Part shown: positions 25,101 through 62,790 of the stretch, in pieces | Numbering within the stretch: position 1 is the first letter of the stretch | Layout of the letters: each line of letters opens with the position of its first letter | DNA from: Agaricus subrufescens | Lineage: Eukaryota > Basidiomycota > Agaricomycetes > Agaricales > Agaricaceae | NCBI GenBank assembly: GCA_029945375.1 | Contig: CM057062.1 | Location: 2,743,564-2,807,563 of the forward strand | Direction of reading: 5' to 3' | Length of the DNA stretch: 64,000 nt | Program-made: the position numbers and the translations under genes | The notes under the pieces: generated by a model | What the model was told of the DNA's origin: nothing | The model's input: the letters and a program-made list of their open reading frames with translations, nothing else | Database searches by the model: none

Positions 25101-28100
25101 GCAACTCATTGATCCGCAAGCAGCAATCGCATACCTTTACCCTGGCGCCTCTCCCTCTCTTCCAGATACGGGTCGGGATAACTCGCAACCCATCTTACAA
25201 ACTCTTGTCAACTCTCTTCGTGATCTCAAACTCTTCATCACCAATATTTCCCTCGAACTTGTGCGCGAACGTGCGTGCCATATTGCTAGTAGCGATTGCC
25301 CACGACCGGAAGATCTTGCTCGTCGATTAATCACTTTGATTAGTGAATCACGTCTTGACTGTCATAATCTCTTCAACTCGTCCAATCTTTCTTGCGATAC
25401 CGAATGGATTCCAACACCGGAGGGGCTGAAAAGTCCTCAGGGTTGCCGTGATGCGAGATCTCATTGGGGAAAACGTAATCTATTTGATAAAGTGATGCCG
25501 ATGGTGTATGCCGACATCCATATCAGCGAAAACCTTCGGCGTGCATTCCCTTGGCATGAACCAGTTCCTTTCGGCATCGTAGCCCAACAATTAGTCAAGA
25601 TACTGGATGAACCGCAGCCACCGTACGAAAAGGCCCGGGAAATCGTTAAGGAGATAGGGAACCGGGTCTTGACGACTGCTCAACTGTCGTCTCTTGGGGA
25701 GCTCCTCACTAATAGAGCATGGATCCCGGTCCGTGGTCAAAGACTTGAGACGATCAGTCACGCCTTACTCGGTGAAATCGACATACCTGAGATAGGATTC
25801 TACTCAATCGCTTATGATATGAGTTTGCATGCCAACGTCCGAAAGTTCCTTGAGAAGATGGGGTGCGTTGAGTAGTAAGTAATTTTTTACTACTCTACCG
25901 AGTTATTGGGATCTGAGTGTTACATAGTCCGTCGAAGGATTCAATATTGCAGCGCCTAGAGCTTCTCTACCACTCAAGGGGGCATAAACCAGCAAGTGCA
26001 GCTCAGGTTACAGCTTTCATCCGCTTCCTTACTTGGCTTCCATCGCTTACACCAGATGAGAGCGCCAAACTATTTATCCCCGACACAAACGGTACTTTGC
26101 GGCCGTATGAGAGCATTTACTATAACGACATTGGAACTCGCTCATTCCTTGTGGATATTGGAGATAATTATCTTGCTCACTCAAGCATCTCTGATAGGCT
26201 GGCGGAAACATTAGAGTTGAAACGTTTGGGGTTCCTGGGGCTCGAAAACCAGTTTGATGATATTGACATGGGCGAAGATCTGTTAACGACAATACGTAAT
26301 CGCCTACGAGAATACTCAGACTCTCAACTACTCCTCGAATTTCTTGCGAATGCCTCAGATGCCGGCGCATCGGTGTTTAATATCCTTCTTGATCAACGAC
26401 CTGCCCATGCGAAAGCCCTTCTATCCCCGCGATGTGCTGCGTTCCAATCTGTACCTGCGCTCATAATCCACAACGACAGTGTTTTTGAAGAGAGTGACAT
26501 TAAGGGGATTTTACGCACTGGAATTGGAGGAAAATCGGATAAATCGGATACCATTGGCCAGTTTGGTTTAGGTGCTTTGACGATGTTCCATATCACAGAG
26601 GTAAGTTTGTCATTTCTTTCTGCCGGATCCCGGTGTCTGACGGTACTCCTCGCAGTTTGCCATGATTGTCTCTCGCGACCAAGTACTGTTTTTAAACCCC
26701 TGCAAAGCTCATCTTTCAGTTGGAAGAGCCTCGTTGCGCTTGCCCCTTTCCCAAGTTCGAAAGTAAGATCAAACTCCATTACGTCCGATTCAGACCCCTA
26801 ATGACATGTGTAGACTGTATGGTGATCATTTGCTACCTCTAGTTGGCCTATTCGGATTTCAACTTCCCGAAGACATTCATGAAAGCTACTCATATAATGG
26901 TGTAAGTAGGCGAACTATCTGTGAGGGCATTCTAAATCTGATAGGTACTTTCAGACATTGTTTCGTTTGCCCCTCCGCTCAGAAGCTCAGCTCCGAGGTG
27001 TTGAACCAATCTTTCAAAGAATTGCTCTTTTGCAAAATCTGGTATCAGATTTTGAGGCGGTGGCGCGTGATTGCCTACTCTTCACTTCTATATCTTCCAT
27101 ATGCTGTTGGGAGCGTAATTGGAAAACTCAAAATCTCTGGTCGCTCACTGCGTCGCGGAGTGAATGTACCGAGATTAAGAAACATCTGAGTGCGCACGAC
27201 GTGACCATCACCTCCGATCGCGAACAAGTTTGCGAATGGCGTGTCTTCTCGGTGTCTGTAAGCGACCAGCAACTTCCCGATTTCACCTCCTCTCTACGAG
27301 AAAAATATAGGTTACGAATTCCACCTGTTGTTCGGATGGCGGCATCTCCGTCTCCCGCTTCTGATCACTATCTTTTTTCCACTCTTCCGCTCCCGATTGC
27401 TCTCGAACTCCCTGTCCACATCTCGGCATCCTTCATTCTGGCTTCTGACCGGAGGTCAATCAGGCTTGATGAGTACGAGAACGCTGAAGCATCATACAAC
27501 CGTTGGCTGCTTCAGACTATCGTGCCCATGCTGTATATATGCTTATTGGAAGACAAAGCTGGATCGGGGACCAATTCCGCCTATTGGCCCGGAAACTCAA
27601 AAAATCATAAAGGGACCCAAAGTGTCATTTCGAAGATGGTGACAGACGCGGTCTATAACGTCGCTGCTACTTCCGGTGCACCCATTTTCAAAAGTGAATA
27701 TCATGAACTTACACTCGCTCCCCGCGATGCTTACCTCATTGGACACATGCATCCGCCTGTTGTATCCGAGGTTCTGGCAAACATTCGACCCACTGATCTC
27801 GCCAAACTCCCTTCTCTCGTAATCCGGAAACTGAAAGATGTTCCTGAAAGTTCTATCTCCCTCGTGACACCGAAATACGTTCAGACGAAAATCCTGGAAA
27901 ATCCCACTAAATTTGAAGCTTCCGAGCTAAGGCCCGATCAGCAACGGGAGTTGATCAACTATTTATGCGAGGGCCAGAAAGGTGAATGCTTAGTCGGCTT
28001 GCCTTTGCTGCCTTTGGAGGATGGAAGTTACGCCAAGTTCGCTCTGTCCCCCAGTTCATGTTTCTATGTCGTACCTGAGCAAGTGATCGAGCAAATTGTG

Positions 28101-30585
28101 TTCAATCGTGGTCGTATACTCCGTCGCGATTCAGACTCAGCAATGCTTCTCAAAATCAGTTGCATTAATATCGAGCCGATATCAGATAACAACATTCAGA
28201 TACTGTTGAATGATTACTTCACCAAGAACACAACTTTGGAAGGCGCGGATGTCGTGACGCAATCATGGATAAAGAGGTTCTGGAAGGTGTATAAACATCT
28301 CAGAATATCTTCAGACTCTGTGGCGGATTATCCATTGATACCGATTCTACGCACCGGTTGCTATGTTTCTCGAAACTACTGTCGGGCGGCTTCCGTTATC
28401 ATTGCCGATTTTGAGCACCACGAGCTGCAGTCTAGATGTTTGGCCCAGATGGGCTTTACTCTTGTTGACGTAGCTTCAATTCCGAGGAACGCGCAATCTA
28501 TGCTCGACCGTTTGGAGTTATCTGTTGAGAAGGTTCTCAATAAACTCTTTGACAGCGGTAAAAATATTCCATCCGCAATCAACCTCCTGCCGCAGGATCT
28601 ACGAACCCAATGGGTCCGCTGGATCCGCTCCTACCTCCATAACCAGCGCCCCCAATATTTTCACAGAAACACCAAATATTGTTCTCTGCCACTATGGGAG
28701 AATCGTGAAGGTTCTCTTCTTTCCGCTCGTGAAGTCAACATGCTCCCGTCAAGCGTTTCAATTGATCACGTTGGGCCGTTCGTTCCTTCTTCAACAGTTG
28801 CCTTCGATGCCCTGTTAAAAAACATGGGTGTAGAACCTCCCGCTTCCATCCTTACGATTCTCACCATCCCAACATCCCTAGAAGATGAAGATGAAGAAGC
28901 ATATCGCAGGCTTCTTCATGTTCTTCTGCGCCATGTTCCAGATGAGACTAGTGTCCCCGTGCCCAACTCACACCGATTGGTGCAGGATTCAGATACACTA
29001 TATTCTTCTCGCGACGATTTATTCCTGGCAGCATTTGGATTGACTTCTGGGAAATTCATCTTACCCTCGTTCCGTGCCCTCGAACCCCAACTCGAGCGCC
29101 ATGGTCTGCAGAGGCAACACAGTCTCGATCTAACTTCCTTCAGAAACTGCCTTCAAGCTTTCCAGAATGCTACAGGCAACGATGTCAGCAATCGTGCTGC
29201 TGTCATTTACAGAATTTTCTCGGAAGACTTGCCACTCCATGCTAATTCTAGCTCCGATACGGAGTGGATGGCGCTGGATGATCTACGCTTCATTCCTCGC
29301 TTAAGCAACCCTCAGATACTTCCAGGAGTCGGAAACGTTTCAAGATATCTTACACGACACGTTCGCTTTTTGCCTGATGTAATTTCCTCAAGACAACTTG
29401 TACGGGAAGAGTTTAGACCGATCGCTTGGTCTCAACGCGCGTGTTACCTCAGGGAACCCCATACTAGGGTCCTTATGGTGCATCCGAGCTTAAGCGTGCC
29501 AAGCGCAACTGAAGTGGTATGTTGTGGGTATCATGACTTTAGTTGTTCAAGCTGACTGTGGCCAATTAAAGGTGAACCACCTTGAGGTTCTAGCGACAGA
29601 GGTAGCTGAAGACCATGCCCGAAATCCGACACTTATCGATCATTTGGAGAAAACATACAAGTGGCTGGATCAAAACGCGGATGATGCTAGAGGCCCCTTG
29701 CAAAACTGCATGAGGGACGGTATACCATTGTTCCTCAATGTTGACGATCCGACAGATCTGGAAGAAGAGTGGAAATGGAAACCAGCCAACCATATCTTAC
29801 TCGATGATTACGATACAGGATTTTTACAATGCCCCCGCGATTTTATCAAACGCTTCCAATCTCTTCTCGTTGCTGCAGGAGCGGTTTCGATCAACTACGG
29901 ACGCGTAAACACCAATGAGAGACCAGCTCATCAAGACGATCGACTCAGTCTTTTAGAGCGGTTCAACGAGATGAGATGCGAGGGCGTATGTACCGACGTT
30001 CACTTTACCTTTGATTCCGAGGAACCGCTGCCTGCGCATCGTGCATATCTAGCTGCATATTCCGGTCACTTTAAGGACATGTTTTCTGGTTTTGGCATTG
30101 AAGCTGGTGTAGCATCCGCTGAAAAACCTATAGCCATCGCAATTGAAGGGTATTCTAGACGTAGTATGGAATGCCTCCTTGGTAAGCTATCGTATTCTAT
30201 CTGGTGACTAACACATAGGGCTCATTTGGTTGTAGATTACGCCTATACGTCACGAAAGCCCGATCTGAAAAGGGAAGAATCGGATCTGGCGCTAGAAATA
30301 CTTGTGCTGGCGCATGGCTGGCTGTTGACAGACGTACAGAATGTGATGCAAAATATCATGATGAGACCCAAAATGGTTGATCCCTTCAACTTGGATCACG
30401 GTGAGCCTTGTCATCATTTAGATTTGATCGACTAAACAAACCTCTTTCCCTTTTTCCCCCAAGTTCGTGGCATCGCTGATGATACGATGTCAGAAGAATT
30501 GCATAAGTATTGTGTTGATTATGAGCAGAGAAATTCTAGTCTAATCCAACAGGCGAGGGAAGGGAGCCAAAATGTTCGAAACTGA
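22118..30585 (+). CDS. Sacsin-like giant protein C: two GHKL ATPase/sacsin repeats plus BTB domain
   Basis: Exons are 22118-22249, 22299-22465, 22517-22559, 22613-23385, 23451-23874, 23932-25874, 25928-26600, 26656-26762, 26814-26901, 26955-29516, 29572-30181, 30236-30400, 30464-30585 (13 exons, 2602 aa). GHKL fold one has RELVSNSDDAKASKQ, AYND and GKYGVGFRASYH. Fold two (about 1290-1385) keeps a complete-looking EFLANASDAGA, HND and GQFGLGALTMFH, so both sites could bind nucleotide. Sacsin motifs GTIIRLPLR and TLFRLPLR (from residue 1451) mark the two repeats. The BTB domain starts near residue 2440 (CTDVHFTFDSEEPLPAHRAY) and runs to about 2560. It resembles B more closely than A in length and exon sizes (exons 1, 2, 3, 8 and 9 are identical in length to B). 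It probably arose by tandem duplication, with H4 and a small gene now lying between. Confidence 0.9.
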
Positions 30586-40468: not shown

Positions 40469-43400
40469 ATGAAGTTCAAGTTCAAAATCCCCAAGTGGTT
40501 GAAACGAAAGCGTAATAGCAACACGGTTGATCAGCCTGGGTCTGAAGGCTTCTCTGCATCTGTACCGGAAATTTCAGGTATGCCTGTTCGTATTCTTGCA
40601 TGGGAATACTCGGAGTTCATGGTAGCCTCAGTTACTCTCGCACCTACCCAGCCGGCGCCCACCGCCATCGCGCACCATCAATCCAACTCCGAGGGTCGCC
40701 GTTCGTCTTTACAAGGTACACGCGGTACGTTTCTGTGTATACTCGTATAGGAACAGACTCAGAGTTCATGTCCTCCTCAGGCCCTGTCACTCCCGCCGAA
40801 TTGACACCTATCGCCACCGTAGCCCATGAATCCAGTGCTGAAAGTCGTGGTTCGTCTTTACAGGATGTCAGAGGTGCGCTGTTGTGTGTATTTGTACGAG
40901 GATAGAGTCGGGATTCATGGCCATCCCAGCCTCTCTCGCACCCGCCCAGTCAACGCGTATCACCACCGTGGTCCATGGGTCCAGTTCTGAAAATCGCGAA
41001 TCGTCTCTACCGGATATTCAAGGTGCGTCTTTGTGTGGATTTGGATGATGACAATCAGGGTTCATGGTCGTCTCAGTCCCTTCTGGTTCGGGCAGCCCCT
41101 TCGCTGGAGCTCATAACTTTAATATCGGCACTGCCAACTTCACGGAAATCCAGGGAGAGGATAAAATACGGCGTAGTAAGAAATGTCATGTCATTCCTTC
41201 ACGAAGTAAACTCATTCGCCTTACCCTCAGTGATGGAATTACTTTTAACATATGTCATGGACGGTTCCGCACCAAACGATGCTGCCCGCGGGTATCGCCT
41301 CGGGTGTCATCCCGGTACACGTGAAACAATTCTCAAATGGCTCCTGTCTTGGTTCAAGGACTCCTCCCGCGCCGAATCTCTTTTTCTCCTTACTGGTCCA
41401 GCAGGCGTTGGCAAATCCGCCATCATGCAAACCTACACGGAAAAGGCGGATCATCGCGTCATTCCTGTATTTATTTCACGACCGAATAAATGTAACGACC
41501 CGAACCGTGTCTTCACTACTATTGGTTACCAACTCGCTGATGAAATCGAAACATACCGAAACTATATCGTTGATCGTGTCGCTACCAGCCCCAACATCCT
41601 GAAGAAAGACATGGAGACTCAATTCGAAGTCTTCATCGTCGAGCCTTTCGTAGTCAGGAATCTTGGAGCTGCCGGGCAGCCCTTGGCTATATTGCTGGAT
41701 GGACTTGACGAACTCGAGGGTATAGACGCGCAACGGCGCATTATCCGGGTCATTGGGAAATTTATACATGATTATCCTAATGCGCCCCTCGCCTGGATCA
41801 TTGCAAGCCGTCCAGAGTTCCATGTAACCAACACGTTCAATGAGCCGCCGATGCAAGGGCGGTTCAAGTCATACACCATCTCCATCGACTCTGAGGACGC
41901 CCGCCAAGATGTTGCCCATTTCTTATCTGACAGCTTCACCGACATACAACGTGAGTTCGCTGGCGTCATCCCACCAAAATGGCCTGAGGAAGCAAAGCTC
42001 GCGAAGCTTGTGGCTGCTTCATCTGGTCTCTTCATTTTCGCTCAAACTGCGCTTCGGTTCATCCGGGATCCTGACTACCCTGACCCTGTTTCACGGCTCG
42101 ATCTTGTCTTATCCGTCATTGATCGTTCGAAGGATGTTCCGCGCGAGGAGCAGCCCTTCAAGAATCTCGACAACCTGTACACCGAAATTCTCTCAAGAAT
42201 CCCAGCGGGGTTACTATCCACAACGAAACGCTTGCTAGTACTGGCGTTGGCATTCCGCAGTAATAATTTTCTGGGACTCTATGCTGCGTCGAAATCTCGT
42301 ACATTGAGAGGCATGGCGCTGATTCTCCAGCTCGATCCGGATAACGTCCATCCCGCTCTCATCCAATGTATTTCAACACTCAAGATACCGCGTCGAGAGG
42401 AAGCACATGAGATGCCGTTGACATTCTTACATGCGTCATTTGCCGACTACCTGGTGGATGCGCAAAGGTCGGGAAAGTTTTATGTCGATGTTGGTAGTAT
42501 TAAGGCCGATGTGTTAATGGGCTATCTCAAGTTATGGGATAAATATTCTGGCGAGGGATCAGGTACGTTCGAGTATATGATTATCGTGTTTGACGAATGC
42601 TTATGACGGCTTTCAGCTGCCGGTGCCGAATTTATCAGTCTTGGATTGGCGAAAGTCCCAGGAGCCGTATTTACCACAGGTATTCTTCAGGAGATGGGCA
42701 AAACACTACTAACCGAGATAGTGAAAAGGCACAAGCCTCAGCAAGTGCTTTCGGCAGAGTTGCATCAAAAGGACATTGAGTGTTTCGATGCGCTCCTGAA
42801 TATCAACATGATGAAACTTTGCAACCTCAATGATCCTATGTGGACTGCCAACCATGGTGCTGACATTGTATGTGAATTTGTTGAGCAGGCATTTGAGGCA
42901 TGGAAGGTAGCGTCCGACTTGGTATGAAACACAGGAATGTCTGACTATTGGTACAGGAGTTTCCATATGAACTTGGTAAAAGGGGGATGTTTCGAGAGGT
43001 CTACTACAAGGATATAAATTTTGATAATAATGGAATACATATGGTCAAAAACGTAGGTGCATCAGTTGGTGAAGTGTGGTCTGTCATTGACAATTTCTCT
43101 TCCACAAATCTCATGGATCAGGATGTAAGTACATGAGGTGGTGAAGTGTGGTCTGTCATTGACAATTTCTCTTCCACAAATCTCATGGATCAGCAAGTAA
43201 GTACATGAGTTGGTGAAGTGTGGTCTGTCATTGACTATTTCTCTTCCACAAATCTCATGGATCAGACTGTAAGTAGATGAGTTGGTGAAGTGTGGTCTGT
43301 CATTGACTATTTCTCTTCCACAAATCTCATGGATCAGCGAGTAAGTACATGAGTTGGTGAAGTGTGGTCTGTCATTGACTATTTCTCTTCCACAAATCTC

Positions 43401-44338
43401 ATGGATCAGCTTGTAAGTACATGAGTTGGTGAAGTGTGGTGTGTCATTGACTATTTCTCTTCCACAAATCTCATGGATCAGGATGTAAGTAGATGAGTTG
43501 ATGAAGTGTGGTGTGTCATTGACTATTTCTCTTCCACAAATCTCATGGATCAGCTTGTAAGTACATGAGTTGGTGAAGTGTGGTGTGTCATTGACTATTT
43601 CTCTTCCACAAATCTCATGGATCAGGGTGTAAGTAGATGAGTTGATGAAGTGTGGTGTGTCATTGACTATTTCTCTTCCACAAATCTCATGGATCAGCTT
43701 GTAAGTACATGAGTTGGTGAAGTGTGGTCTGTCATTGACGATTTCTCTTCCACAAATATCATGGATCAGGTTGTAAGTAGATGAGTTGGTGAAGTGTGGT
43801 CTGTCATTGACTATTTCTCTTCCACATATCTCATGGATCAGCCTGTAAGTACATGAGTTGGTGAAGTGTGGTGTGTCATTGACTATTTCTCTTCCACAAA
43901 TCTCATGGATCAGGTTGTAAGTACATGAGTTGGTGAAGTGTGGTGTGTCATTGACTATTTCTCCACAAATCAGATTCATCGTGATGTAAGTACATTGGTT
44001 GGTGAAGGGTAGTCTGTCATTGACTATTTCTCTTCCACAAATTTCATGCATCAGCCTGTAAGTACATCTGTTCCTAATCTATTGTCTATGCTTTACTATT
44101 TCTCTTCTACATAATCAGCTTGTAAGTACATCAATTCATGAACTGTAATTTGTTATTCATCATTTTCTCTTGACTTCACAAGGTTATTGATGATGCAACA
44201 AAACAATTTTTACATAAATCACCCAATCTATCTGTCCTTATATGTGGTGCCATTCTGGGTGGTCAAGTTGCTCTTTTTCCTGGTGATAGGATAGGGCTCA
44301 AATACTGTATTGCTCCTTACCATCCCAAAACTGAATGA
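40469..44338 (+). CDS. NACHT-domain NLR/STAND protein with 3' micro-exon array
   Basis: Proposed exons are 40469-40577, 40632-40724, 40781-40873, 40930-41022, 41077-41175, 41231-42562, 42617-42906, 42957-43052, then fifteen tiny exons (see 43053-44182), and a last exon 44183-44338. The total is 804 aa if all are used; going straight from 43052 to 44183 also keeps frame. The N-terminus is basic (MKFKFKIPKWLKRKR). Three 31-aa repeats and a GAHNFNIGTANFTEIQG motif typical of basidiomycete NLRs follow. The NACHT has Walker A GPAGVGKSA, Walker B LAILLDGLDEL and the IIASRPEF segment. A winged-helix-like part contains FLHASFADYLVD. The last exon encodes 51 aa ending YHPKTE. Fungal NLRs act in heterokaryon incompatibility and innate recognition; the ligand is unknown. 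Domains up to 42562 are firm. Exons 7-8 and the array are inferred from phase and comparison with copy 2. Confidence 0.75.
40578..41076 (+). repeat. Tandem exon+intron duplication: three 93-nt exons
   Basis: Exons 40632-40724, 40781-40873 and 40930-41022 are each exactly 93 nt (31 codons) with phase-1 introns on both sides. Unit starts are 149 bp apart. The encoded units are alike, for example GRRSSLQGTRG, SRGSSLQDVRG and NRESSLPDIQG at their ends. The flanking introns (54, 56, 56 and 54 nt) also resemble each other, each with a GAGTTCATG- or GATTCATG-like string before the acceptor. This indicates duplication of intron-exon units. The symmetrical phase means gain or loss of a unit keeps the reading frame. 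Confidence 0.8.
43053..44182 (+). repeat. Tandem array of 72-bp units, each a 69-nt intron plus a 3-nt candidate exon
   Basis: Sixteen successive intron-like units lie between the exon ending at 43052 and the exon starting at 44183. Typical units begin GTAAGTACATGAG, contain ATTGACTATTTCTCTTCC (branch-like A, then a pyrimidine tract) and end CATGGATCAG. Between CAG and the next GTAAGT lie triplets at 43122 GAT, 43194 CAA, 43266 ACT, 43338 CGA, 43410 CTT, 43482 GAT, 43554 CTT, 43626 GGT, 43698 CTT, 43770 GTT, 43842 CCT, 43914 GTT, then a 12-nt block 43974-43985, then 44055 CCT and 44119 CTT. All are multiples of three. Introns are 69 nt except 57 nt (unit before 43974) and 61 nt (last two). 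Whether the triplets are retained in mRNA is unknown. Confidence 0.85.
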
Positions 44339-52071: not shown

Positions 52072-53926
52072 AGTTTATAATTAGTACAACCATAGCAATG
52101 CAATTGAGCGTGATCATTTGTGAGATGCCTCATGCTCGTTGCAAGCACGAGGCTGGCTGACTCTTTGCCACCCAACCTCATTTGCACAAATCCCCGCTCA
52201 TACTACTCCAACCCAAAGAGGTGTGGCTCGAACAATACACCTTTGCAATCCTCGCAGCTGACCTTTTGATGCAACTTTTGTCCTCTGTTTGTAGCACTCT
52301 CAGTCATGAAGTGCAAAATCAAAATCCCCAGGTGGTTGAAACGAAAGTGTAATAGCAATATGGTTGATCAGCCTGGGTCTGGAGGCTTTTCTGCGTCATT
52401 ATCAGAAATCTCAGGTATGTTGGTTGGTATTCTGGAATGGGAACACACTTGGAGTTTGTGATCCCCTCAGTTACTCCCGCACCCACCCAGCCGGCACCCA
52501 CCACCATTATGCGCAACCAATCCAACACCGAGGTTTGCCTTTTGACTTTACAAAACACACATGGTGCGTTTCTGCATATACTCGTATAAGAACACACTCA
52601 GAATTCACAACCACCTCATACCCCATGAGACCTGCCGAATTGACACCTATTGTGACTGTAGGCTGCAAATCCAGTGCTGAAAATCATGGCTTGTCTGTAC
52701 AGGATGTCCAAGGTGTGTTGTTGTGCATGTTTGTATGATGATAGAGTCAGGATACATGGTCGTCCCAGCCTCTCTCGCACCCACTCAGTCAACACCTATC
52801 ACCACCGTGGTCCATGGGTCCAGTTCTGAAAATTGTGATTTGTCTCTACCAGATATTCAAGGTGTGTCTTTGTGTGTATCTGAATGATGATGATCAGGGG
52901 TTCATGGTCGTCTCAGCCCCATCTGGTTCAGGAAACTACTTTGCTGGGGCTCATCACATTAACATTGGCACTGCCAACTTCACGGAAATCCAGGGAGAGG
53001 ATAAAATACAGTGTAGTAAGAATTGTCATGTCATCCCTTTACAAAGTAAATTCATTCATCTTACCCTCAGTGATGGAATTACTTTTAACATATGTCATGG
53101 ATAGTTCTGCACCAAACAATGCTACCTGCAGATATTGCCTTGGCTGTGATCCTGGTACATGTGAAACAATTCTCAAGTGGCTCCTAGCTTGGTTCAAAGA
53201 TGCCTCCCACTCCGAATCCCGTTTTCTCCTTACTGGTCCAGCAGGCGTCAGTAAATCTGCCATCATGCAGACTTACACGGAAATTGGGGATCATTGTGCC
53301 ATTCCCATATTTATTTCACGACCAAATAAATGTAACAACCTGAACCATGTTTTCACTGCCATCGGTTACCAACTCACTGATCAAATTGAGACGTACTGAA
53401 ACTATATCATTGATCGTGTCGCTACCAGCCCCAATATCCTTAATAAAGACATGGAAACTCAATTCCAGGTCTTCATCATCAAGCCATTCGTAGTCAGGAA
53501 TGTTGGAGCTGGCGGGCTGCCCTTGGCTATACTGCTGGATGGACTTGATGAACTCGAAGGTGCAGACGCACAACGGCGCATTATCCAGGTAATTGGGAAT
53601 TTTATACAGGATTATCCTAATGTGCCCCTTGCCTGGATCATTGCGAGTCGTCCAGAGTTCCATATAACCAACACATTCAATGAGCCGCCAATGCAAGGGC
53701 AGTTCAAATCATACACCATCTCCATCAACGACCCAGAGGCTCTCCAAGATGTTGCACACTTCTTGTCCAAGAGCTTCAATGGCATACAACGTGAGTTCGC
53801 TGGCCTCATCCCCCCAAAATGGCCTGAGGAAGCAAAGCTTGTGGCTGCTTCATCTGGCCTCTTCATTTTTGCTCAAACTGCGCTTTGGTTCATCCGGGAT
53901 CCTGACTACCCTGACCCTGTTTCATG
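52072..53926 (+). repeat. Segmental duplication copy 2, left part
   Basis: Homologous to 40235-42092 of copy 1, including the promoter flank, the N-terminal exons and the NACHT. It is interrupted at 53926 by an LTR retrotransposon; similarity resumes at 60463. Differences from copy 1 are dominated by CpG to TpG or CpA changes. Confidence 0.9.
53923..53926. repeat. Target-site duplication CATG, left
   Basis: CATG directly precedes the left LTR and recurs directly after the right LTR at 60463-60466. With one CATG the flanks join to sequence co-linear with copy 1 around 42092. Confidence 0.85.
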
Positions 53927-54175
53927 TGTACTGAAAGATAGTTGCTTGTTCGAGTAGGGGTAGATGTAGTAGAAAGATAATAAGAAGATGATTAATTAAA
54001 GTAGCTTTTCGAGTCGTTCAATTCTTCGGGTACAGGACGAAAACACTAACTACTGCCAAATCAACTATAAGGGTCTAACGCGTGACAAGTTACGGTAACT
54101 AAAAATGATGTAAACTATTTCAAATAAGTCCCTCTATCTGCTTCTTCTTCGACTAGCCACAACGACCTCACTACA
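53927..54175 (-). repeat. 3' LTR (sense of the element)
   Basis: 249 bp with TG...CA ends when read on the plus strand. It appears identical to 60214-60462. It follows the polypurine tract and is the downstream LTR relative to the minus-strand coding genes. Confidence 0.95.
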
Positions 54176-54327: not shown

Positions 54328-56130
54328 TTACTCCTCCTCCGCTGTCGTAGACAATTGTTCACCACCTGTGAGTTCTGTCACCTCTAGCTCCATTTTTGAC
54401 CGTGCCTGATAAGGGATCAGACAAAATGCTGCAAATTTCAGCTTCGAGACCACCCCCGAAACTTCTGCAAGTGTGTAGGCTCCTTTTTCATGACGACAAA
54501 CAACAACCATAGGGCCGAAATATCGTGGGCGACATTTACGACCCACCTCTGGCTCAATTTTCTTATTGAGTACCAATACGAGATCTCCAGGTGTGAAGTT
54601 GTAATCCTTGATCTTGTTGCTATTTCGTTTCTCAAAGGCTTTTGTAGATCTCTTACGGGCCTCTACCACTCGTTTGTGCATTTCAGCAAGATTGTCATCG
54701 CGTTTTTCGAGTGCTCGTGACCTCGTGGCCAACAACTCTGCCTGTGTAAGTTTTCGTGTGACTGGGGGTAGGAGATATGTCGCCTCGGTGATGTCGAAGG
54801 GCAGGAGAGGTTCCACCCCATGTGTCATGTAATATGGAGTGTGTCCTGTTGCTGTACGCGTAGTGACTCGATCTGCCCAGAAGATATATGGTGCGTGTTC
54901 ATACCACTTTCGAATTTTGCCTTTACAAACTTTGACCAGGGCATCTTGAACAGTTCTGTGTGTCGTTTCTACTGCCCCATTTGCCTGTGAGTTATATGCC
55001 GAGATCCGTATGTGTCGAATATGATATTTTTCTGCGAGCCAGTCCAATGCTGCCACAAAAGGGGTACCATTATCGGTCACGATCTCTTCGAGTCCTCCCC
55101 ATCGACACAATATCTCTTCAAAGATGAATGCTCCAAGGGTGCGACCTGTTTCTCTTGAGAGAGAACGCCACTCCGGCCACCCTGTGAGACTGCAGCGAGC
55201 TTGTACAATATACCTATGCCCATGTGATGGTGGCATGTGCATTGTGTCAATATATGCCTTGCGGAAGAGGGGTGCTGGGATTTGTACTGTTGGTGGAATA
55301 ACGACTTGTTCTGTTGATCGTATCTGGCATTGGTGACATGTTGATATGTACCAGCGAATGTCATCGTCGATGTGGGGCCACCAGAATCGATCCACCATTG
55401 TTCGACGTGTTGCGAAAAATCCTTTATGCCCTAGCTCATCATGTGTCTTCATCAGCAGCTCGTACCTCTCCTCTCTTCCCATCACCACTACCTGATGTCT
55501 CCCACTGTACGCCTTCCTCCACATCTTGTTTCCTTTCACAAAAAACTGACTTGCTCTTTTCAGAAACCTTGTTCTCATCTTCTCGTCTAACCCTTCCGGC
55601 ATCTCCAACTTCTCCAAGAACCTCCTTATTTTCCTCAGCTCTGCGTTCCTCGCCTTTGCCTTTTCATCATCTGGTGGTGTCTGGCCTCCTTCCTGACCTC
55701 CACTTTGAATAATGACGTCCTCGTCATTCCCTTTACTCCACCCCGCTGTCAGTACCAACCCATCTACTCCTTTTCCCTCCTCACCCGCTCTTTCTAGGCC
55801 TGCTATCCATATACCACAACCCAACACTTCATCTACCCATCCTTCCACTTCCTCCTCAAGCTCCTCCTCATCCTCACTGTCCTCCTCTCCTTTTCTCCTC
55901 CTCGATAACCCATCTGGTCCCTTGTGTTTTGCTCCTGGTACATGTCGCAACTCAAAGTCAAACATCAGGATTGCTGCAATCCATCTATTCATTGCCGCAT
56001 TTGGGTGAACGTCGGGTCGGTTAATCATCCCTTTAATGTACTTCGCATCGACTTCCACAATTAACTTTCCTGCTCCCACCAGGTAGAGCTTACATGCGTT
56101 GATGGCTCGAAATACTCCATATAACTCCAA
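54328..56130 (-). CDS. Retrotransposon RNase H (C-terminal part) and integrase
   Basis: An open frame of 600 codons. The first 90 residues are the end of RNase H plus connection (LELYGVFRAINACKLYLVGA, HVPGAKHKGPDGLSRR). A highly charged acidic linker follows. The integrase zinc domain appears as HDELGHKGFF ... CHQCQ. The catalytic core carries the D (YIDTMHM), D (VTDNGTPF) and E (GAVETTH) residues of a DDE integrase. A basic C-terminal part includes FTPGDLVLVLNKK and RKCRPRYFGPMVV, as in Ty3-type integrases. The frame differs from the upstream RT frame, and RNase H is divided at the boundary near 56130-56163. Confidence 0.92.
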   Translation of the reverse strand: MELYGVFRAINACKLYLVGAGKLIVEVDAKYIKGMINRPDVHPNAAMNRWIAAILMFDFELRHVPGAKHKGPDGLSRRRKGEEDSEDEEELEEEVEGWVDEVLGCGIWIAGLERAGEEGKGVDGLVLTAGWSKGNDEDVIIQSGGQEGGQTPPDDEKAKARNAELRKIRRFLEKLEMPEGLDEKMRTRFLKRASQFFVKGNKMWRKAYSGRHQVVVMGREERYELLMKTHDELGHKGFFATRRTMVDRFWWPHIDDDIRWYISTCHQCQIRSTEQVVIPPTVQIPAPLFRKAYIDTMHMPPSHGHRYIVQARCSLTGWPEWRSLSRETGRTLGAFIFEEILCRWGGLEEIVTDNGTPFVAALDWLAEKYHIRHIRISAYNSQANGAVETTHRTVQDALVKVCKGKIRKWYEHAPYIFWADRVTTRTATGHTPYYMTHGVEPLLPFDITEATYLLPPVTRKLTQAELLATRSRALEKRDDNLAEMHKRVVEARKRSTKAFEKRNSNKIKDYNFTPGDLVLVLNKKIEPEVGRKCRPRYFGPMVVVCRHEKGAYTLAEVSGVVSKLKFAAFCLIPYQARSKMELEVTELTGGEQLSTTAEEE

Positions 56131-56162
56131 TTTTGCCTGTGAGTATCTCGATATTCTCTCGT

Positions 56163-57572
56163 TTAAATTGAACCAAATCTTGCAGGTCGACGATGTCCTT
56201 CTTTGTCTAATTGTGCCAGTATGAACCCGACTGCGATCACTGATGTATCAACTGCGAGAATGATGGGAAATGGTTGGCTGTAATCAATGGGCCGGATTGC
56301 TTCACACCTTGCTACTCGTTTCTTCACTTCCTCCATTGCCTCTCTCTCCTCCTCTCCCCATTTAAACTCTGCTTTTGTCACCCTCGTCAATTTTGTCAAT
56401 GGACCGCACACCTCCGCAAATCCTTTGATCCAGTTTCGTACCACACCTGCCATCCCCAGAAATCCTCTCACTTCCGACACCGTCCTACACTCTGGCCACC
56501 TCAACACCTTCTTTACTGTCACCTCATCCGGCCTCTGCCCTTCGTACGTGCATACTCTCCCTACCACCACTATCTCCGGTTGACATACTTGTAGCTTTTT
56601 CGCTGACACTGTTGCCCCTGCATACCAAAGACGATGTGAGACCCTATTTAGGTCTAGGGCATGTTCCCAGATGAACCGTCGTATACCTGGGTTCTCTTCT
56701 ATCACCTCGTAAGTCCCATCATCTTTCTCATACCGAGTTTTTGGGCCTAATACTGTAACGTCATCTAGGAAATTTGGTGCGTGTTCGGTTTCATCTTGGA
56801 GTAGGAATGCCACGTCGTTATGGAATATCCCTACTGATCCTGTCCAGCCCTGGGGCAACACTGTTAACCGCATTGTTCCTAGTGGAGTGTCAAACGTCGT
56901 AAAGTCCCTTGATTCATCAGCTAGGCTTCGGTGATCATATCCCACAAATATATCTAGACCCGAGTAAACTCCACGTGCCGCACATTGTTCAGCATATAGA
57001 TAAACGAGTGGGGGTTCTTGGGAGTCTTTGATGGTGACTGCGTTCAAGGGCGTGAGGTTATGCACTATCCGTATGTTCCCATCTTTCTTGGCTACTGTGA
57101 ACCATTGATGACGATATGAGCTGTAGGATGGTTCATAGACTCCAGACTCGATCTTCTGCTTTACGAGGGCCATGACTTTTTCACGAATGCCGGGTGGGAT
57201 TGGAAGGGATTTTCGGGACCATGGAGCATGGTCGGTGACTGGAATTTTGACTGGTGTGAAGTAGTCGTCCCAAAATCTTCCTTTCTCTGTTTCGTCCCAT
57301 GCTAAACCCATCTCGTTTGCTGCTAGCACCTGAACTATAAGTTTCCGCTCCTCTGGTAGTAGAAACTCATTTGTCATGATCCCTAGAGTCTCTACACGAT
57401 CCTGCGTAAGACGTTTTCCTGGCTGAAAGGGTGGGGAGTGTGCCGAAATGAGTGGTAAGCTGTCTAGTGGGTTTTCTGGAAACTTTCTGATAATACGGCA
57501 GTCTTCCGGCATTGTTCCAGGTACTGGGCGAACCTTGTTGGCAACCGACTTATAGGCTAGGCAATGTGCCAT
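56163..57572 (-). CDS. Retrotransposon reverse transcriptase and N-terminal RNase H
   Basis: A 469-codon frame. RT blocks include WFTVAKKDGNIRIVHNLTPL, the first aspartate in YSGLDIFVGYDH, LPQGWTGSVGIFHNDV and the catalytic FLDDVTVLG (the usual form is Y/F-x-D-D). The thumb/connection GFLGMAGVVRNWIKGFAEVC and the RNase H start ILAVDTSVIAVGFILAQLD follow. It ends at a TAA just after ARFGSI, where the homologous frame continues in another register at 56130. This is either an inactivating indel or an unusual frameshift site. Confidence 0.92.
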   Translation of the reverse strand: MAHCLAYKSVANKVRPVPGTMPEDCRIIRKFPENPLDSLPLISAHSPPFQPGKRLTQDRVETLGIMTNEFLLPEERKLIVQVLAANEMGLAWDETEKGRFWDDYFTPVKIPVTDHAPWSRKSLPIPPGIREKVMALVKQKIESGVYEPSYSSYRHQWFTVAKKDGNIRIVHNLTPLNAVTIKDSQEPPLVYLYAEQCAARGVYSGLDIFVGYDHRSLADESRDFTTFDTPLGTMRLTVLPQGWTGSVGIFHNDVAFLLQDETEHAPNFLDDVTVLGPKTRYEKDDGTYEVIEENPGIRRFIWEHALDLNRVSHRLWYAGATVSAKKLQVCQPEIVVVGRVCTYEGQRPDEVTVKKVLRWPECRTVSEVRGFLGMAGVVRNWIKGFAEVCGPLTKLTRVTKAEFKWGEEEREAMEEVKKRVARCEAIRPIDYSQPFPIILAVDTSVIAVGFILAQLDKEGHRRPARFGSI

Positions 57573-57629
57573 AGGATTATAAGTATATGATGATGCGAGG
57601 AGTACCTCCGTAAGTGAGTCTTCCTTCCC

Positions 57630-58631
57630 TCATATTTCCATCCCTCTCATCTCTTCCTCTACCAGCACCATCAACCCCTTCCTTGTCTTCTCCTCCCTCC
57701 TCTCTCTCGTTGGCACCACCACCTGTCTCCCTGCCTCCCTTGGATCCGTCACTATCACTTCCACGATTCCGCCGCTCTTTTCTACTTTCTGTAACTTCAC
57801 ACTACTCTGCCACGGTCTTCCCAACAACAACTGATATGGTGCTGACTTGACAACAAATGCATGTGCGTATGTTGGAACTCCCTCCACCATAATTCCAAGA
57901 TACTCGATGCATCCCTCTAGCTCTTCCTTTCCCCCATCCGCTGTCTGCATCATCATCTTCCTTTCTCGATTCACCTCCAACCCCAGCTCCTCACACAGGT
58001 CTTTTCGTATCAACACAATCTCTGACCCCTCATCTAACAACCCCATTTCTTTTATCTCCTTCCCCTCTCGTCCATGAATGACTACTTCCACTTCTCGAAG
58101 CGGTGTTGAGAAGTCTAGTGCTAGCTCCGGCCTTCCTGCTACCATTGCACTTGTTGTTGGAACCTTGTGAGTTGCCGAGACACTTATCATCAACCGTCGA
58201 AGATCACTGCTAATCGTGAGAAGTTCTTTCACAGTAATCTTCGGCACTTCCGTTTTGAGTATCCGTTGACAGATATCCTGGGCTACCTCTGGATTTTGGA
58301 GTTTTGGTTTGAAACGATATGCTGGCTTGGGCTTGGTAGACTTTTCTTTCCCGACTTCTGGTTCTGTTCTCTTTTCTGCTTCTTTCCCCTGTGCTCTTGT
58401 CATTGCTAATCCCTCTACCTCCTCCGTCCGCTCTAACTCTGTCATTGCTCCCCACACAAATCCTCCCTCCGAGATTACATCAACCTCCTCTACCGACACG
58501 TAGGATGTAAATGTCTTGTTTCCTGCAGGTGGTAAATGAGGTGGGCTCTCTCGTACTCCTGATGATGGTGTTGTATTCGTTACTAAAACCATTAATGGTC
58601 CTCCCCATCTTAGATCAACAGCTGCTTTCAT
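57630..58631 (-). CDS. Retrotransposon protease region
   Basis: A 333-codon frame in the same frame as gag and RT, separated from each by a single TGA codon (58713-58715 before it, 57628-57630 after it). An aspartic-protease-like motif LLDEGSEIVLI near residue 200 occupies the place of the usual D-[ST]-G, followed by YAHAFVVKSAPYQLLLGRPW, the second conserved part. The rest is Lys/Glu-rich linker. The ATG used here is internal to what was probably a continuous polyprotein. Confidence 0.8.
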   Translation of the reverse strand: MKAAVDLRWGGPLMVLVTNTTPSSGVRESPPHLPPAGNKTFTSYVSVEEVDVISEGGFVWGAMTELERTEEVEGLAMTRAQGKEAEKRTEPEVGKEKSTKPKPAYRFKPKLQNPEVAQDICQRILKTEVPKITVKELLTISSDLRRLMISVSATHKVPTTSAMVAGRPELALDFSTPLREVEVVIHGREGKEIKEMGLLDEGSEIVLIRKDLCEELGLEVNRERKMMMQTADGGKEELEGCIEYLGIMVEGVPTYAHAFVVKSAPYQLLLGRPWQSSVKLQKVEKSGGIVEVIVTDPREAGRQVVVPTRERREEKTRKGLMVLVEEEMRGMEI

Positions 58632-58712
58632 CCCTGCTGGGTTCCACTCAATCCGAGAGCCATCTGGATAGGATAGATGTCCACTAGGAACTGTAGCTAT
58701 GATTCTCCCTGC

Positions 58713-60038
58713 TCAAATATATTCTGCGACGGTGGGACAACCTCGGCAGTGGTGGCCGGTACCTTTACAAAAATGACAGGTAGGATTGGCTGGTCTTTGT
58801 GGTATGTATTGAGCAGGTGGCTGTTGTCGGGGTGCTTGTGGGATATATGAGGGCTTTGATGTGTTCAAAACCCATTGCGACGGAAGAGGGATTTGGTCCT
58901 TGAGAGTAGGGACCAAAGCCACTAACTTGGTATAGGTCGTCATGTATGCCGCTTCATCAACTTTCAGACCATGTAGCTGTTTCGTCAACTCATCAATTTC
59001 CAACATCCTTCCTTTCTCTCCTATCCTCTTCTCTTCCCCCATCTTCACCTTCCTCGTCTTCACTTCATACCTCTCTGTCTTCTTCCCCTTCTTCCCCTTC
59101 CCTTTCTTCTTCCTCTTCCTGTCCTCTTCACTTGATGACTCCTCCTCCGAACTCGACTCTGATGTACTCAACTCTGACTCATCACTGCTCTCCGACTCCG
59201 ACTCATCACTGCTCTCCTCATCACTCGTCTCATCTCTCCTTGCTTTCCTCCCCTTTCTTTTCTTGTTCTTCTTTACTCCGATCACTTTGTCATCCACACC
59301 CTCTGCCTCCTTCGAGAATAGGAACATGCCTGCCTCTAACACTTTCTTGACACTTGGGTACTCGGAGCGTTGTAGAGCTGGATTATGGATTTCAAGGTAT
59401 GCCCGAATTTTCTTTCTCGTCGTGGGATGCAACCCTTTCCAGAAATACTCCTTCTTCTCGGTATCCGACAATTTGTTAGCTGCTTGGAGCTGACCCGATA
59501 GGTAGCCAAACTTCCTGTTATACTCGCTAAGCTGGTCGTCCTTTGAAATACGAGTCTTTGCTGATTTCTCCACCAGTTTAGCCAATTTCTTGACCGAAAA
59601 TGTAGGCTCGAGCTCCGTTTTTGAGTATGTCCCCTCTATACTCTGCTTCAGTGTCACGAAGTCATGATCATATCCATCCAGTGTCTTCCAATACCGCTTT
59701 GTTTTGTCATCTGTGTATCTGACCACTGCCTTTGACTTTTCCTTCGCGTCTAACCCACACCCTTTTGCTATTTCTTCAAATGTCTCGAAAAAGTCCCATA
59801 GTTTTGCAGGCTTTTTCCTGTCAAACCTTGGAGCCTTTTTGCTCAAGGGGTCTGGCATTGTCCCTTTTGGTGTTGATGTAGACGCCATTGGTGTACCAGC
59901 TGGAGGTATGGCTGGGAATGATGGTGGAGTAGGCACTGGCAGAAATGCTGGTGGATCTGGTAGCTGTTCAAATAATTGTCTGCGAGTGTGAGCGCATAGA
60001 CTGTCTTCTACACCTGAGTTGCTTTTTCCTGTTTCCAC
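58713..60038 (-). CDS. Retrotransposon Gag
   Basis: A 441-codon frame with a capsid-like region (about residues 60-250, including KLWDFFETFEEIAKGCGLDA and KEYFWKGLHPTTRKKIRAYL). A Ser/Glu/Asp/Lys-rich low-complexity tract lies at about 265-330. A C-terminal zinc knuckle CHFCKGTGHHCRGC (C-x2-C-x4-H-x4-C) ends nine residues before a TGA. The true start may be upstream because the frame is open for about 40 codons before this ATG without another ATG. Confidence 0.88.
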   Translation of the reverse strand: METGKSNSGVEDSLCAHTRRQLFEQLPDPPAFLPVPTPPSFPAIPPAGTPMASTSTPKGTMPDPLSKKAPRFDRKKPAKLWDFFETFEEIAKGCGLDAKEKSKAVVRYTDDKTKRYWKTLDGYDHDFVTLKQSIEGTYSKTELEPTFSVKKLAKLVEKSAKTRISKDDQLSEYNRKFGYLSGQLQAANKLSDTEKKEYFWKGLHPTTRKKIRAYLEIHNPALQRSEYPSVKKVLEAGMFLFSKEAEGVDDKVIGVKKNKKRKGRKARRDETSDEESSDESESESSDESELSTSESSSEEESSSEEDRKRKKKGKGKKGKKTERYEVKTRKVKMGEEKRIGEKGRMLEIDELTKQLHGLKVDEAAYMTTYTKLVALVPTLKDQIPLPSQWVLNTSKPSYIPQAPRQQPPAQYIPQRPANPTCHFCKGTGHHCRGCPTVAEYI

Positions 60039-60192
60039 TGTTTCCTCTGGCTTTGACTTCTTTTTCCCTTTAGGGGCAGGGTTCGAAGTACTGCGCTGTG
60101 TTGTTCGAGATGGTGGCCGAGGACGTAGGTTATAAAGGGGACTGGAAATGTTGAAGGTAGGTTGGTGAGGGGGTTGTGCTTGGCTACACTAC

Positions 60193-60462: not shown

Positions 60463-62790
60463 CATGCCTCAATCTTGTCTTATCCATCATTGATTGTTCA
60501 AAGAATGTTCTGCACGAGGAGTAGCCCTTCAAGAATCTCGACAACCTGTACACTGAAATTCTCTCAAGAATCCCAGTGGGGCTGCTATTTATAATGAAAC
60601 GCTTGCTTGGGGTGGCATTGGCATTCCGCAGCAGTGACTTTCTTGGACTCAATTATCAGTCGAAATCTCATACACTGAGAGGCATGGCTCTGATTCTCCA
60701 GCTTGATCCAAATAACGTCCATCCCACTCTCATCCAATGTATTTCAACACTCAAGACCCCATGCCGAGAGGAAGCACATGAGATGCCGTTGTCATTTTTA
60801 CATGCTTCTTTTGCTGACTGCTTGGTGGATGCGCAAAGGTCAGGAAGGTTTTATATTGATGTTGGTAGTATCAAGGTTGACGTGTTACTGGGCTATCTCA
60901 ATTTGTGGGATAAATATTCTGGTGAGGGATCAGGTACATTCAAGTATATGATTATTGTGTTTGAGGAATGCTTATGAGGGCCCTCAGCTTTTATCAGTGT
61001 TGGAATGCCCAAAGTCCCAAGAACTGAAACATTTACCACAGGTATTCTTCAGGAGATGGGCAAAACACTACTGACTGAGATAGTGAAACGGCACAAGCTT
61101 CAGCAAGTGCTTTTGTCACAGTTGTATCAAAAGGACATTGGGTGTTTTGATGCACTCCTAAATATCAACATGATCAGACTTTGCGAACTCAGCAGTATAT
61201 GGACTGCCAACTATGGTATTGACATTGTATATATGTTTGTTACGCAGGCATTCGAGGCATGGAAGGTAGTGTCAGACTTGGTTTCAAACATAGGAATTTC
61301 TGACTATTGGTACAGGAATTTCCATATGAACTTGGTAGAAGGGGGATATTTTGAGAGGTCTACTACAAGGATATAAACATTGACTTGAACAGTTATGAAA
61401 TTTATATGGTCAAAAAGGTAAGTGCATCAGTTGGTGAAGTGTAGTCTATCATTGACTATTTCTCTTCCACAAATCTCATGGATCAGAATGTAAGTACATT
61501 ATTTGGTGGGGTGTGGTCTGTCATTGACTATTTCTCTTCTGCAAATCTCATTGATCAGACTGTAAGTACATGAGTTGGTGAAGTGTGGTCTGTCATTGAC
61601 TATTTCTCTTCCACAAATCTCATGGATCAGCATGTGAGTACATGAGTTGGTGAAGTGTGGTGTGTCATTGACTATTTCTCTTCCACAAATCTCATGGATC
61701 AGGTTGTAAGTACATGAGTTGGTGAAGTGTAGTCCATCATTGACTATTTCTCTTCCACAAATATCATGGATCAGACTGTAAGTATATGAGTTGGTGAAGT
61801 GTGGTCTATCATTGACTATTTATCTTCCACAAATCTGATGGATCAGTATGTAAGTACATCAGTTGGTGAAGTGTAGTCTGTCATTGACTATTTCTCTTCC
61901 ACAAATCTCATGGATCAGCCTGTAATACAGTTGGTGAAGTTTGGTCTGTCATTGACTATTTCTCTTCCACAAATCTCATGGATCAGGATGTACTGTAAGT
62001 ACATCAGTTGGTGGGGTGTGGTCTGCCATTGACTATTTCTCTTCCACAAATCTCATGGATCAGCATGTGAGTACATGAGTTGGTGAAGTGTGGTCTGTTA
62101 TTGACTATTTCTCTTCCACAAATCTCATGGATCAGGTTGTAAGTATATGAGTTGGTGAAGTGTAGTCTCTCATTGACTAATTCTCTTCCATAAATCATAT
62201 TCATCATCATGTAAGTACATGAGTTGGTAAAATGTAGTCTCTCATTGACTATTTGTCTTTCCCAAATCTGATGGATCAGCTTGTAAGTACATCAGTTCCT
62301 AATCTATAGTCCATGCTTTACAATTTCTCTTCCACATAATCAGGTTGTAAGTACATCAGTCCATGAACTGTAATTTGTTATTCATCATTCTCTCTTGGCT
62401 TCACAAGGGTATTGATGATACAACAAAACAATTTTTACAAAATTCACCCAATCTATCTGTCCTTATATGTGGTACCATTCCAGATGGTCAGGTTGCTCTT
62501 GTTCCTGGTGACAGCAAGGGGAAAAAATACTGTATTGTTCCTTACCATCCCAAAACTGAATGAGGTTGAGGAAGTGAGTATAGAGTCTTTTTTCTCTCCA
62601 GCTGCTAATCCTCAAAGAACAGGGTACCAAATACCTGGATACAAGTTTGGTTTGGAAGGGGAACACAAGTTGTGTATAGTTGGATGCTGTCATATGCTAC
62701 TCTTTCCTTCTTTTTTTGTCTTGTAACTGTACAACATATATCCATGCTGCCTTTTCAGAGTCTCCTTATCCTTACCCATTATTGACATCT
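60463..62790 (+). repeat. Segmental duplication copy 2, right part
   Basis: Homologous to about 42093-44568 of copy 1, beginning directly after the retrotransposon and including the C-terminal NACHT flank, the tandem array, the final exon and its 3' flank. It ends where a T-run marks the 3' end of a LINE. Confidence 0.9.
61418..62407 (+). repeat. Second tandem array of 72-bp intron-like units
   Basis: Same unit as 43053-44182. Triplets between CAG and GT are AAT 61487, ACT 61559, CAT 61631, GTT 61703, ACT 61775, TAT 61847, CCT 61919, an 8-nt block 61987-61994, CAT 62064, GTT 62136, CTT 62280 and GTT 62344. One unit (ending at 62210) has lost its CAG acceptor (CAT instead), and one donor has changed from GTAAGT to GTAATA (61922). 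Two donors read GTGAGT. The array leads to the open final exon equivalent 62408-62563. Confidence 0.85.

Follow-up and report, generated by a model that had tools for sequence, protein, structure and literature searches.

The closest described system is that of the truffle Tuber melanosporum, in which the expanded NACHT-ANK (nank) family contains codon-sized mini-exons of 3 bp that are alternatively spliced (Iotti et al. 2012, Fungal Biol. 116:261, as cited in PMC4986451, PMC3689799, PMC10197012 and PMC9815663). This work deals with an array of this kind in the agaric Agaricus subrufescens (Basidiomycota). It is carried by a gene found in a stretch of 64,000 nucleotides (nt) of the assembly GCA_029945375.1 (contig CM057062.1, positions 2,743,564 to 2,807,563, forward strand). 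The whole stretch is referred to as the window, and positions are those of the window unless a contig is given. The gene is, according to its domain matches, a STAND/NACHT (NLR-type) P-loop NTPase. As in the truffle, insofar as the citing papers describe it, the family is an expanded fungal NLR-type family in which tens of 3-bp exons lie close to the C-terminal recognition part. Unlike the Tuber family, which belongs to an ascomycete and is compared here by description only, the window gene has no ankyrin match in Pfam and its array lies inside a small alpha/beta C-terminal domain. Alternative splicing has been reported for Tuber, whereas in the window family it is a possibility. The initial annotation had considered such tandem introns with one-codon exons as not previously described; this was mistaken, since the citing papers attribute the 3-bp mini-exons of truffle NACHT-ANK genes to Iotti et al. 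The kind is therefore already known, and the basidiomycete form, without ankyrin match and in a different domain, would be a new variant. No basidiomycete array of this kind was found in a literature search that was thin on subscription journals and did not include preprints, so that this negative is weak.

Fungal NLRs with WD, ANK or TPR repeats (HET-E/HNWD type) undergo concerted evolution (PMC10197012, PMC9815663). To the extent that these sources describe them, they resemble the window family by a receptor diversity based on near-identical repeats, few hypervariable positions and shuffling by recombination. They differ in that their repeat is a protein repeat, whereas the repeat of the window arrays is an intron plus one codon, of which the codon alone would reach the protein. 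Chains of tiny in-frame exons are also found in the micro-exon genes of schistosomes and among the microexons of animals and plants; their exons generally comprise several codons and do not repeat a single unit in tandem. Introner-like elements of fungi are near-identical introns, numerous per genome and scattered over unrelated genes. The window family shares with them the many near-identical introns, but the arrays that were read precede the same final exon or are cut-off pieces. Of the groups with micro-exons, the schistosomes are named in PMC11121469.

The window array comprises 16 tandem introns and 15 micro-exons (14 of 3 nt and one of 12 nt), which bears out the initial annotation of the NLR-type gene as one with one-codon exons between tandem introns. 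Tandem Repeats Finder (TRF) gives a period of 72 nt across 43053-44067 (14.1 copies, 91% matches). According to the splice parse, the micro-exons are, in order, GAT CAA ACT CGA CTT GAT CTT GGT CTT GTT CCT GTT ATTCATCGTGAT CCT CTT. The array is entered and left in phase 0 (exon 42957-43052 and final exon 44183-44338, the latter coding 51 amino acids). Since the length of each of the 15 blocks is divisible by 3, the frame is kept whichever later acceptor a donor is joined to; on these points too the initial annotation holds. It also stands that ATCAG directly precedes 15 of the 15 micro-exons. GTAAGT is the donor of 15 introns; as a correction, the first donor (43053) is GTAGGT. Similarly, the proposed intron length of 69 nt applies to 13 of the 16 introns; the 13th has 57 nt, the 15th and 16th have 61 nt, and the acceptor preceding the final exon (44183) is ACAAG. 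A strict branch motif was found in all of the 12 inner introns. At the place matching 43974-43985, the C9 paralogues have two in-frame AGs 9 nt apart (AATCAG-ACACGTCAG in C9:1975500). These two AGs could be alternative acceptors; from the sequence, the window retains only the upstream AG, which gives its 12-nt exon.

The first 27 nt of the unit have 206 matches in the genome at 3 mismatches or fewer, and a second unit type of about 71 nt has 79; the reversed-pattern control gave 0 in both cases. All of the listed unit matches whose loci were read are in or near the NLR gene family of the window. Searches with the final exon gave 21 matches at the DNA level and 25 at the protein level (the query counted), on contigs C1, C4, C6, C7, C8, C9, C13 and C25. 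All arrays that were read, from this one genome, precede this final exon or sit in cut-off pieces; other arrays were not the object of a genome-wide search. The counts do not include C13:1363776 and C1:5833321 (array interrupted, a single triplet beside the final exon), C8:1405237 (13 triplets, then the array breaks off; final exon not found), C27 (contig end reached), C4:621833 (eroded), and C7:2389496 and C25:127004 (unread).

Twenty arrays were parsed with donor, branch-like motif and acceptor scored by generic fungal weights set by the authors, internal exon length being free from 1 to 45 nt. A first parse resolved 17 of them, with introns of 42-77 nt and 4 to 32 internal exons per copy. 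It gave 308 internal exons, 301 of 3 nt and 305 that are multiples of 3; the other lengths are 12 nt (twice) and 39, 15, 11, 8 and 7 nt (once each). Two copies are identical across 5,253 bases, so that 23 exons among the 308 are counted twice. These letter-identical stretches (G000:C6:1842041-1847293 and C6:2398481-2403733) would be a recent duplication or an assembly artefact. A damaged second copy in the window has a stop within exon 3, and 3 of its 13 internal exons are not multiples of 3 (11, 8 and 7 nt); without this copy, 295 of 295 are. When longer introns were allowed, two of the three remaining arrays gave 19/19 exons of 3 nt and 18/19 of 3 nt plus one of 12. The upstream exon ends in phase 0 in 17 of the 17 copies in which it lies in the stretch (three of the 20 stretches started inside the array), and the final exon is in phase 0 in 20/20. 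None of 240 dinucleotide shuffles could be parsed (six arrays, 40 shuffles each; first donor and last acceptor kept; exons of 1-45 nt). The donor is GTAAGT-like throughout the parsed arrays, and 115 of the 117 introns of a seven-copy set have the strict branch motif. In three older arrays, introns are on average 73-83% identical within the array; donor positions 3-6 are nearly fixed and the 3-nt exon is kept. From these donor, branch and acceptor signals, the units appear to be genuine spliceosomal introns, whose removal from RNA is predicted.

Variation is concentrated in the codons. In the seven-copy set (117 units), entropy is 1.71, 1.98 and 0.48 bits at exon positions 1, 2 and 3, whereas intron bodies average 0.27. 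When two units of an array have introns identical to the letter, their codons differ in 62 of 77 pairs (exact duplicate C6:2398481 dropped), positions 1, 2 and 3 differing in 0.62, 0.71 and 0.00 of these pairs. In C8:1361397, for example, the codons that come after ten identical introns are GGT CCT ATT GCT GCT GCT CTT GGT TAT CTT. In a set of 297 triplets (C6:2398481 dropped, C9:1414031 added), the third position is T 252, A 32, G 12 and C 1; in exons 1-3 of the window gene it is T 188 and C 187. With this third-place T, the codons would be similar to an NNT library, which has 15 amino acids, no stop and no AG before the donor.

Two pairs of close copies, which may be alleles or recent duplicates, indicate how the strings change. 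C25:130065 and C13:1373730 differ by substitutions at 36 of 911 intron-body sites, 0 of 45 micro-exon sites and 0 of 246 exon sites, all 15 codons being alike. C25:64333 and C1:5903761 do not differ in their flanks (0/457), but in mid-array the differences are of whole units. The strings of the array middle are MYMYMYLFPWH and MYMLFPLFPWH, respectively; the ATG-TAT pair is repeated in one, and the other has other units there. As judged from these sequences, strings are retained during the point drift of copies and are changed through gain, loss or exchange of units.

Pfam assigns NPHP3_N (PF24883) to the window gene product (E 1.3e-13, 51.9 bits, cut-off 24.8); NACHT (PF05729) is below its cut-off of 26.7 (E 1.4e-4, 22.2 bits). 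No ANK, WD, TPR or LRR match was found in this product (Pfam, E up to 1), and the C-terminal domain has only a sub-threshold match to DUF6905 (E 0.24). Among 120 protein matches listed, the ten best are metagenome proteins (58-69% identity) and the closest named ones are from Agaricus bisporus, Macrolepiota, Leucocoprinus and Leucoagaricus (about 32-51%). An RPB2 fragment of the window's genome has 90-94% identity to Marasmius, Mycena, Agrocybe and Desarmillaria, in keeping with an agaric (Agaricales). A Foldseek search of solved structures with a full-length homologue model returned AAA+ and STAND proteins, with subunits of the origin recognition complex (ORC), Apaf-1 and CED-4 within the best ten; it says only AAA+/STAND and is uninformative on the C-terminal domain. 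When 13 copies, whose coded strings have 4 to 36 residues, are aligned with nine Agaricus bisporus proteins, the string is located between REVYYKDIN...MVK and VID..TK.FLQ.SPNL.VLICG...GGQVA...GD...YCIVPY. A model of an Agaricus bisporus homologue (P0058; 28-sequence alignment, mean predicted local distance difference test score 75.8, predicted template modelling score 0.59) has a predicted beta hairpin at the matching place (strands 634-641 and 646-652, before helix 657-673), and the lowest confidence of the domain is at residues 641-650. The string is probably an exposed hairpin or loop, as judged from this model of the homologue.

The directly observed anatomy, recurrence, frame, hypervariability and whole-unit differences between near-identical copies make it quite probable that single codons are spliced one after another into a hypervariable receptor loop, and that this loop owes its diversity in the genome to intron-plus-codon units being gained, lost and changed. 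Each 72-nt unit would be a spliceosomal intron of about 69 nt followed by a one-codon exon. The transcript would be spliced intron by intron, the short introns being recognised across the intron; with such recognition and sequential removal, a 3-nt exon would be no bar. Each unit would thus add one residue, and the resulting string (DQTRLDLGLVPV-IHRD-PL in the window) would be inserted between two conserved parts of the C-terminal domain. Because every unit is the same intron with a phase-0 codon, gain, loss or exchange of units would alter the loop and leave frame and splice sites intact. Units would be gained and lost and intron sequences homogenised, codon positions 1 and 2 being kept diverse. 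The loop would evolve residue by residue, through exchange of whole units between 69-nt introns, and the loop would differ in sequence between paralogues, as one would expect for a non-self receptor. The parts of this scheme that we infer are the splicing and translation of all units, a role of the loop in recognition, and selection as the cause.

Several points weigh against this scheme. The excess of T over C in the third position (252 to 1) is not accounted for by selection on the protein; a splice-site constraint is a guess. The absence of stops among the triplets (0/297) counts for little, as it follows almost automatically from T in third place; one TGA, caught by a looser regular expression for the junctions, is not used in the splice parse. 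The absence of change in 45 micro-exon sites is weak on its own, its chance being about 0.16 at the intron rate. As the parser demands GT and AG, the conservation of these dinucleotides is obtained by construction; the rest of the donor, the branch and the exon length are not imposed. The third of the arrays reparsed with longer introns, C4:921765, requires exons of 2, 20 and 20 nt (23 of its 26 are of 3 nt). In C25:64333, the strict branch motif is present in 3 of 15 introns, with CTCAT instead in the others. Two array copies are interrupted. In the eroded array L089 (C4:621833; G000:C4:621700-623500, minus strand), acceptors are mostly ATCGG and the spacing is irregular, so that it does not look spliceable; it would be a decayed relative or sequence noise.

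Combinatorial splicing, by which units would be included or skipped so that one gene gives many loop variants (arithmetically, up to 2^15 subsets), is a real possibility that we hold to be somewhat short of even. Every skip is in frame, given 15 blocks that are all divisible by 3 in length and splice sites that hardly differ; moreover, truffle mini-exons are alternatively spliced according to the citing papers (PMC4986451, PMC3689799, PMC10197012, PMC9815663). However, skipping a single unit requires an intron of about 141 nt, double the unit, and the codons kept while introns drift in C25:130065/C13:1373730 suggest that the written string matters. More doubtful is a single-codon exon library, in which the spliceosome would assemble the loop codon by codon, introns would serve as recombination spacers and transcripts would draw differing subsets, giving a Dscam-like repertoire per gene. 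Strings differ among paralogues and codons differ beside identical introns; the evidence thus favours, first, a diversity encoded in the genome itself.

A locally raised mutation rate or targeted editing, rather than selection, is an improbable source of the variation at codon positions 1 and 2. Codons differ almost as often beside identical introns as beside diverged ones (0.81 vs 0.87-0.94, figures that barely shift), as it would predict, but 15 of 15 codons agree in C25:130065/C13:1373730 while 36 of 911 intron sites differ. We know of no cause for a hot spot confined to two bases between splice sites. It is equally improbable that the array is a minisatellite within one long intron (43053-44182) that is excised whole, the triplets being meaningless. 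The 72-nt tandem repeat of high identity and the reduction of one copy to 4 codons are consistent with this, but a neutral repeat has no reason to focus variation on two bases between AG and GT, the 3-nt spacing is kept while the remainder gains and loses bases, and intact copies are in frame whereas the damaged window copy is not. A minus-strand protein of 24-residue repeats, suggested by a 338-codon open frame (43062-44078), has next to no probability and was rejected: the minus frame is long in only 2 of the 20 arrays (338 codons in the window copy, 365 in C9:1414031; 47 to 146 at most in the 18 others), a period of 71 in many arrays makes a frame impossible, and its Pfam matches are scattered over unrelated families, mostly without a single significant stretch. 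Plus-strand read-through was also rejected, the longest plus frame being 30 to 244 codons of 113 to 777 and not common to the arrays.

If serial splicing of single codons is correct, a receptor region varies through one-codon exons in a second fungal phylum, and its presence in both basidiomycetes and truffles would indicate either convergence or a very old device. The handling of chains of 3-nt exons by the spliceosome, the intron as a single-residue recombination spacer and the diversification of fungal non-self receptors would become testable. The most variable part of such receptors would escape gene finders built on the assumption of longer exons; plant microexons are misannotated in the same manner (PMC8831610).

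Table 1. Features of the NLR-type gene, of its micro-exon array and of the damaged paralogue in the window.
Feature	Position	Strand	Basis
Open reading frame and exon with NTPase domain (Walker A GPAGVGKS, Walker B ILLDGLDE); 5' boundary provisional	40906..42562	+	Pfam
Ordinary intron, GTACGT...TTTCAG	42563..42616	+	sequence and frame
Exon 2 of the modelled 3' part	42617..42921	+	
Ordinary intron, GTATGA...TACAG	42922..42956	+	
Exon 3, ends ...REVYYKDINFDNNGIHMVKN in phase 0, conserved in paralogues	42957..43052	+	
Array, 16 tandem introns and 15 micro-exons (14 x 3 nt, 1 x 12 nt)	43053..44182	+	TRF, splice parse
Micro-exon 1, GAT (D)	43122..43124	+	splice parse
Micro-exon 2, CAA (Q)	43194..43196	+	splice parse
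Micro-exon 3, ACT (T)	43266..43268	+	splice parse
Micro-exon 4, CGA (R)	43338..43340	+	splice parse
Micro-exon 5, CTT (L)	43410..43412	+	splice parse
Micro-exon 6, GAT (D)	43482..43484	+	splice parse
Micro-exon 7, CTT (L)	43554..43556	+	splice parse
Micro-exon 8, GGT (G)	43626..43628	+	splice parse
Micro-exon 9, CTT (L)	43698..43700	+	splice parse
Micro-exon 10, GTT (V)	43770..43772	+	splice parse
Micro-exon 11, CCT (P)	43842..43844	+	splice parse
Micro-exon 12, GTT (V)	43914..43916	+	splice parse
Micro-exon 13, 12 nt, ATTCATCGTGAT (IHRD), preceded by a 57-nt intron	43974..43985	+	splice parse
Micro-exon 14, CCT (P)	44055..44057	+	splice parse
Micro-exon 15, CTT (L)	44119..44121	+	splice parse
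Final exon, 51 amino acids and stop (VIDDATKQFLHKSPNLSVLICG...PKTE*), phase 0, 25 genome copies	44183..44338	+	
Second array, damaged paralogue	61418..62407	+	
Final exon of the second paralogue	62408..62563	+	

At 52884-53957, 54328-60188 and 60525-62563, the second NLR paralogue, whose array is the one with out-of-frame exons, is split by a minus-strand retroelement, which has Pfam matches to reverse transcriptase, RNase H-like and integrase domains. Both NLR genes of the window have a 149-nt tandem repeat on their 5' side (40765-41043 and 52670-52891); judging from its sequence, it may hold repeated small 5' exons. The window also contains three copies of a giant gene: 370-8696 (minus strand), 10156-17946 (plus strand) and 22601-30207 (plus strand). 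Among the open reading frames of this gene scanned with Pfam, one has a sacsin domain and another a BTB domain (two with a match, one without).

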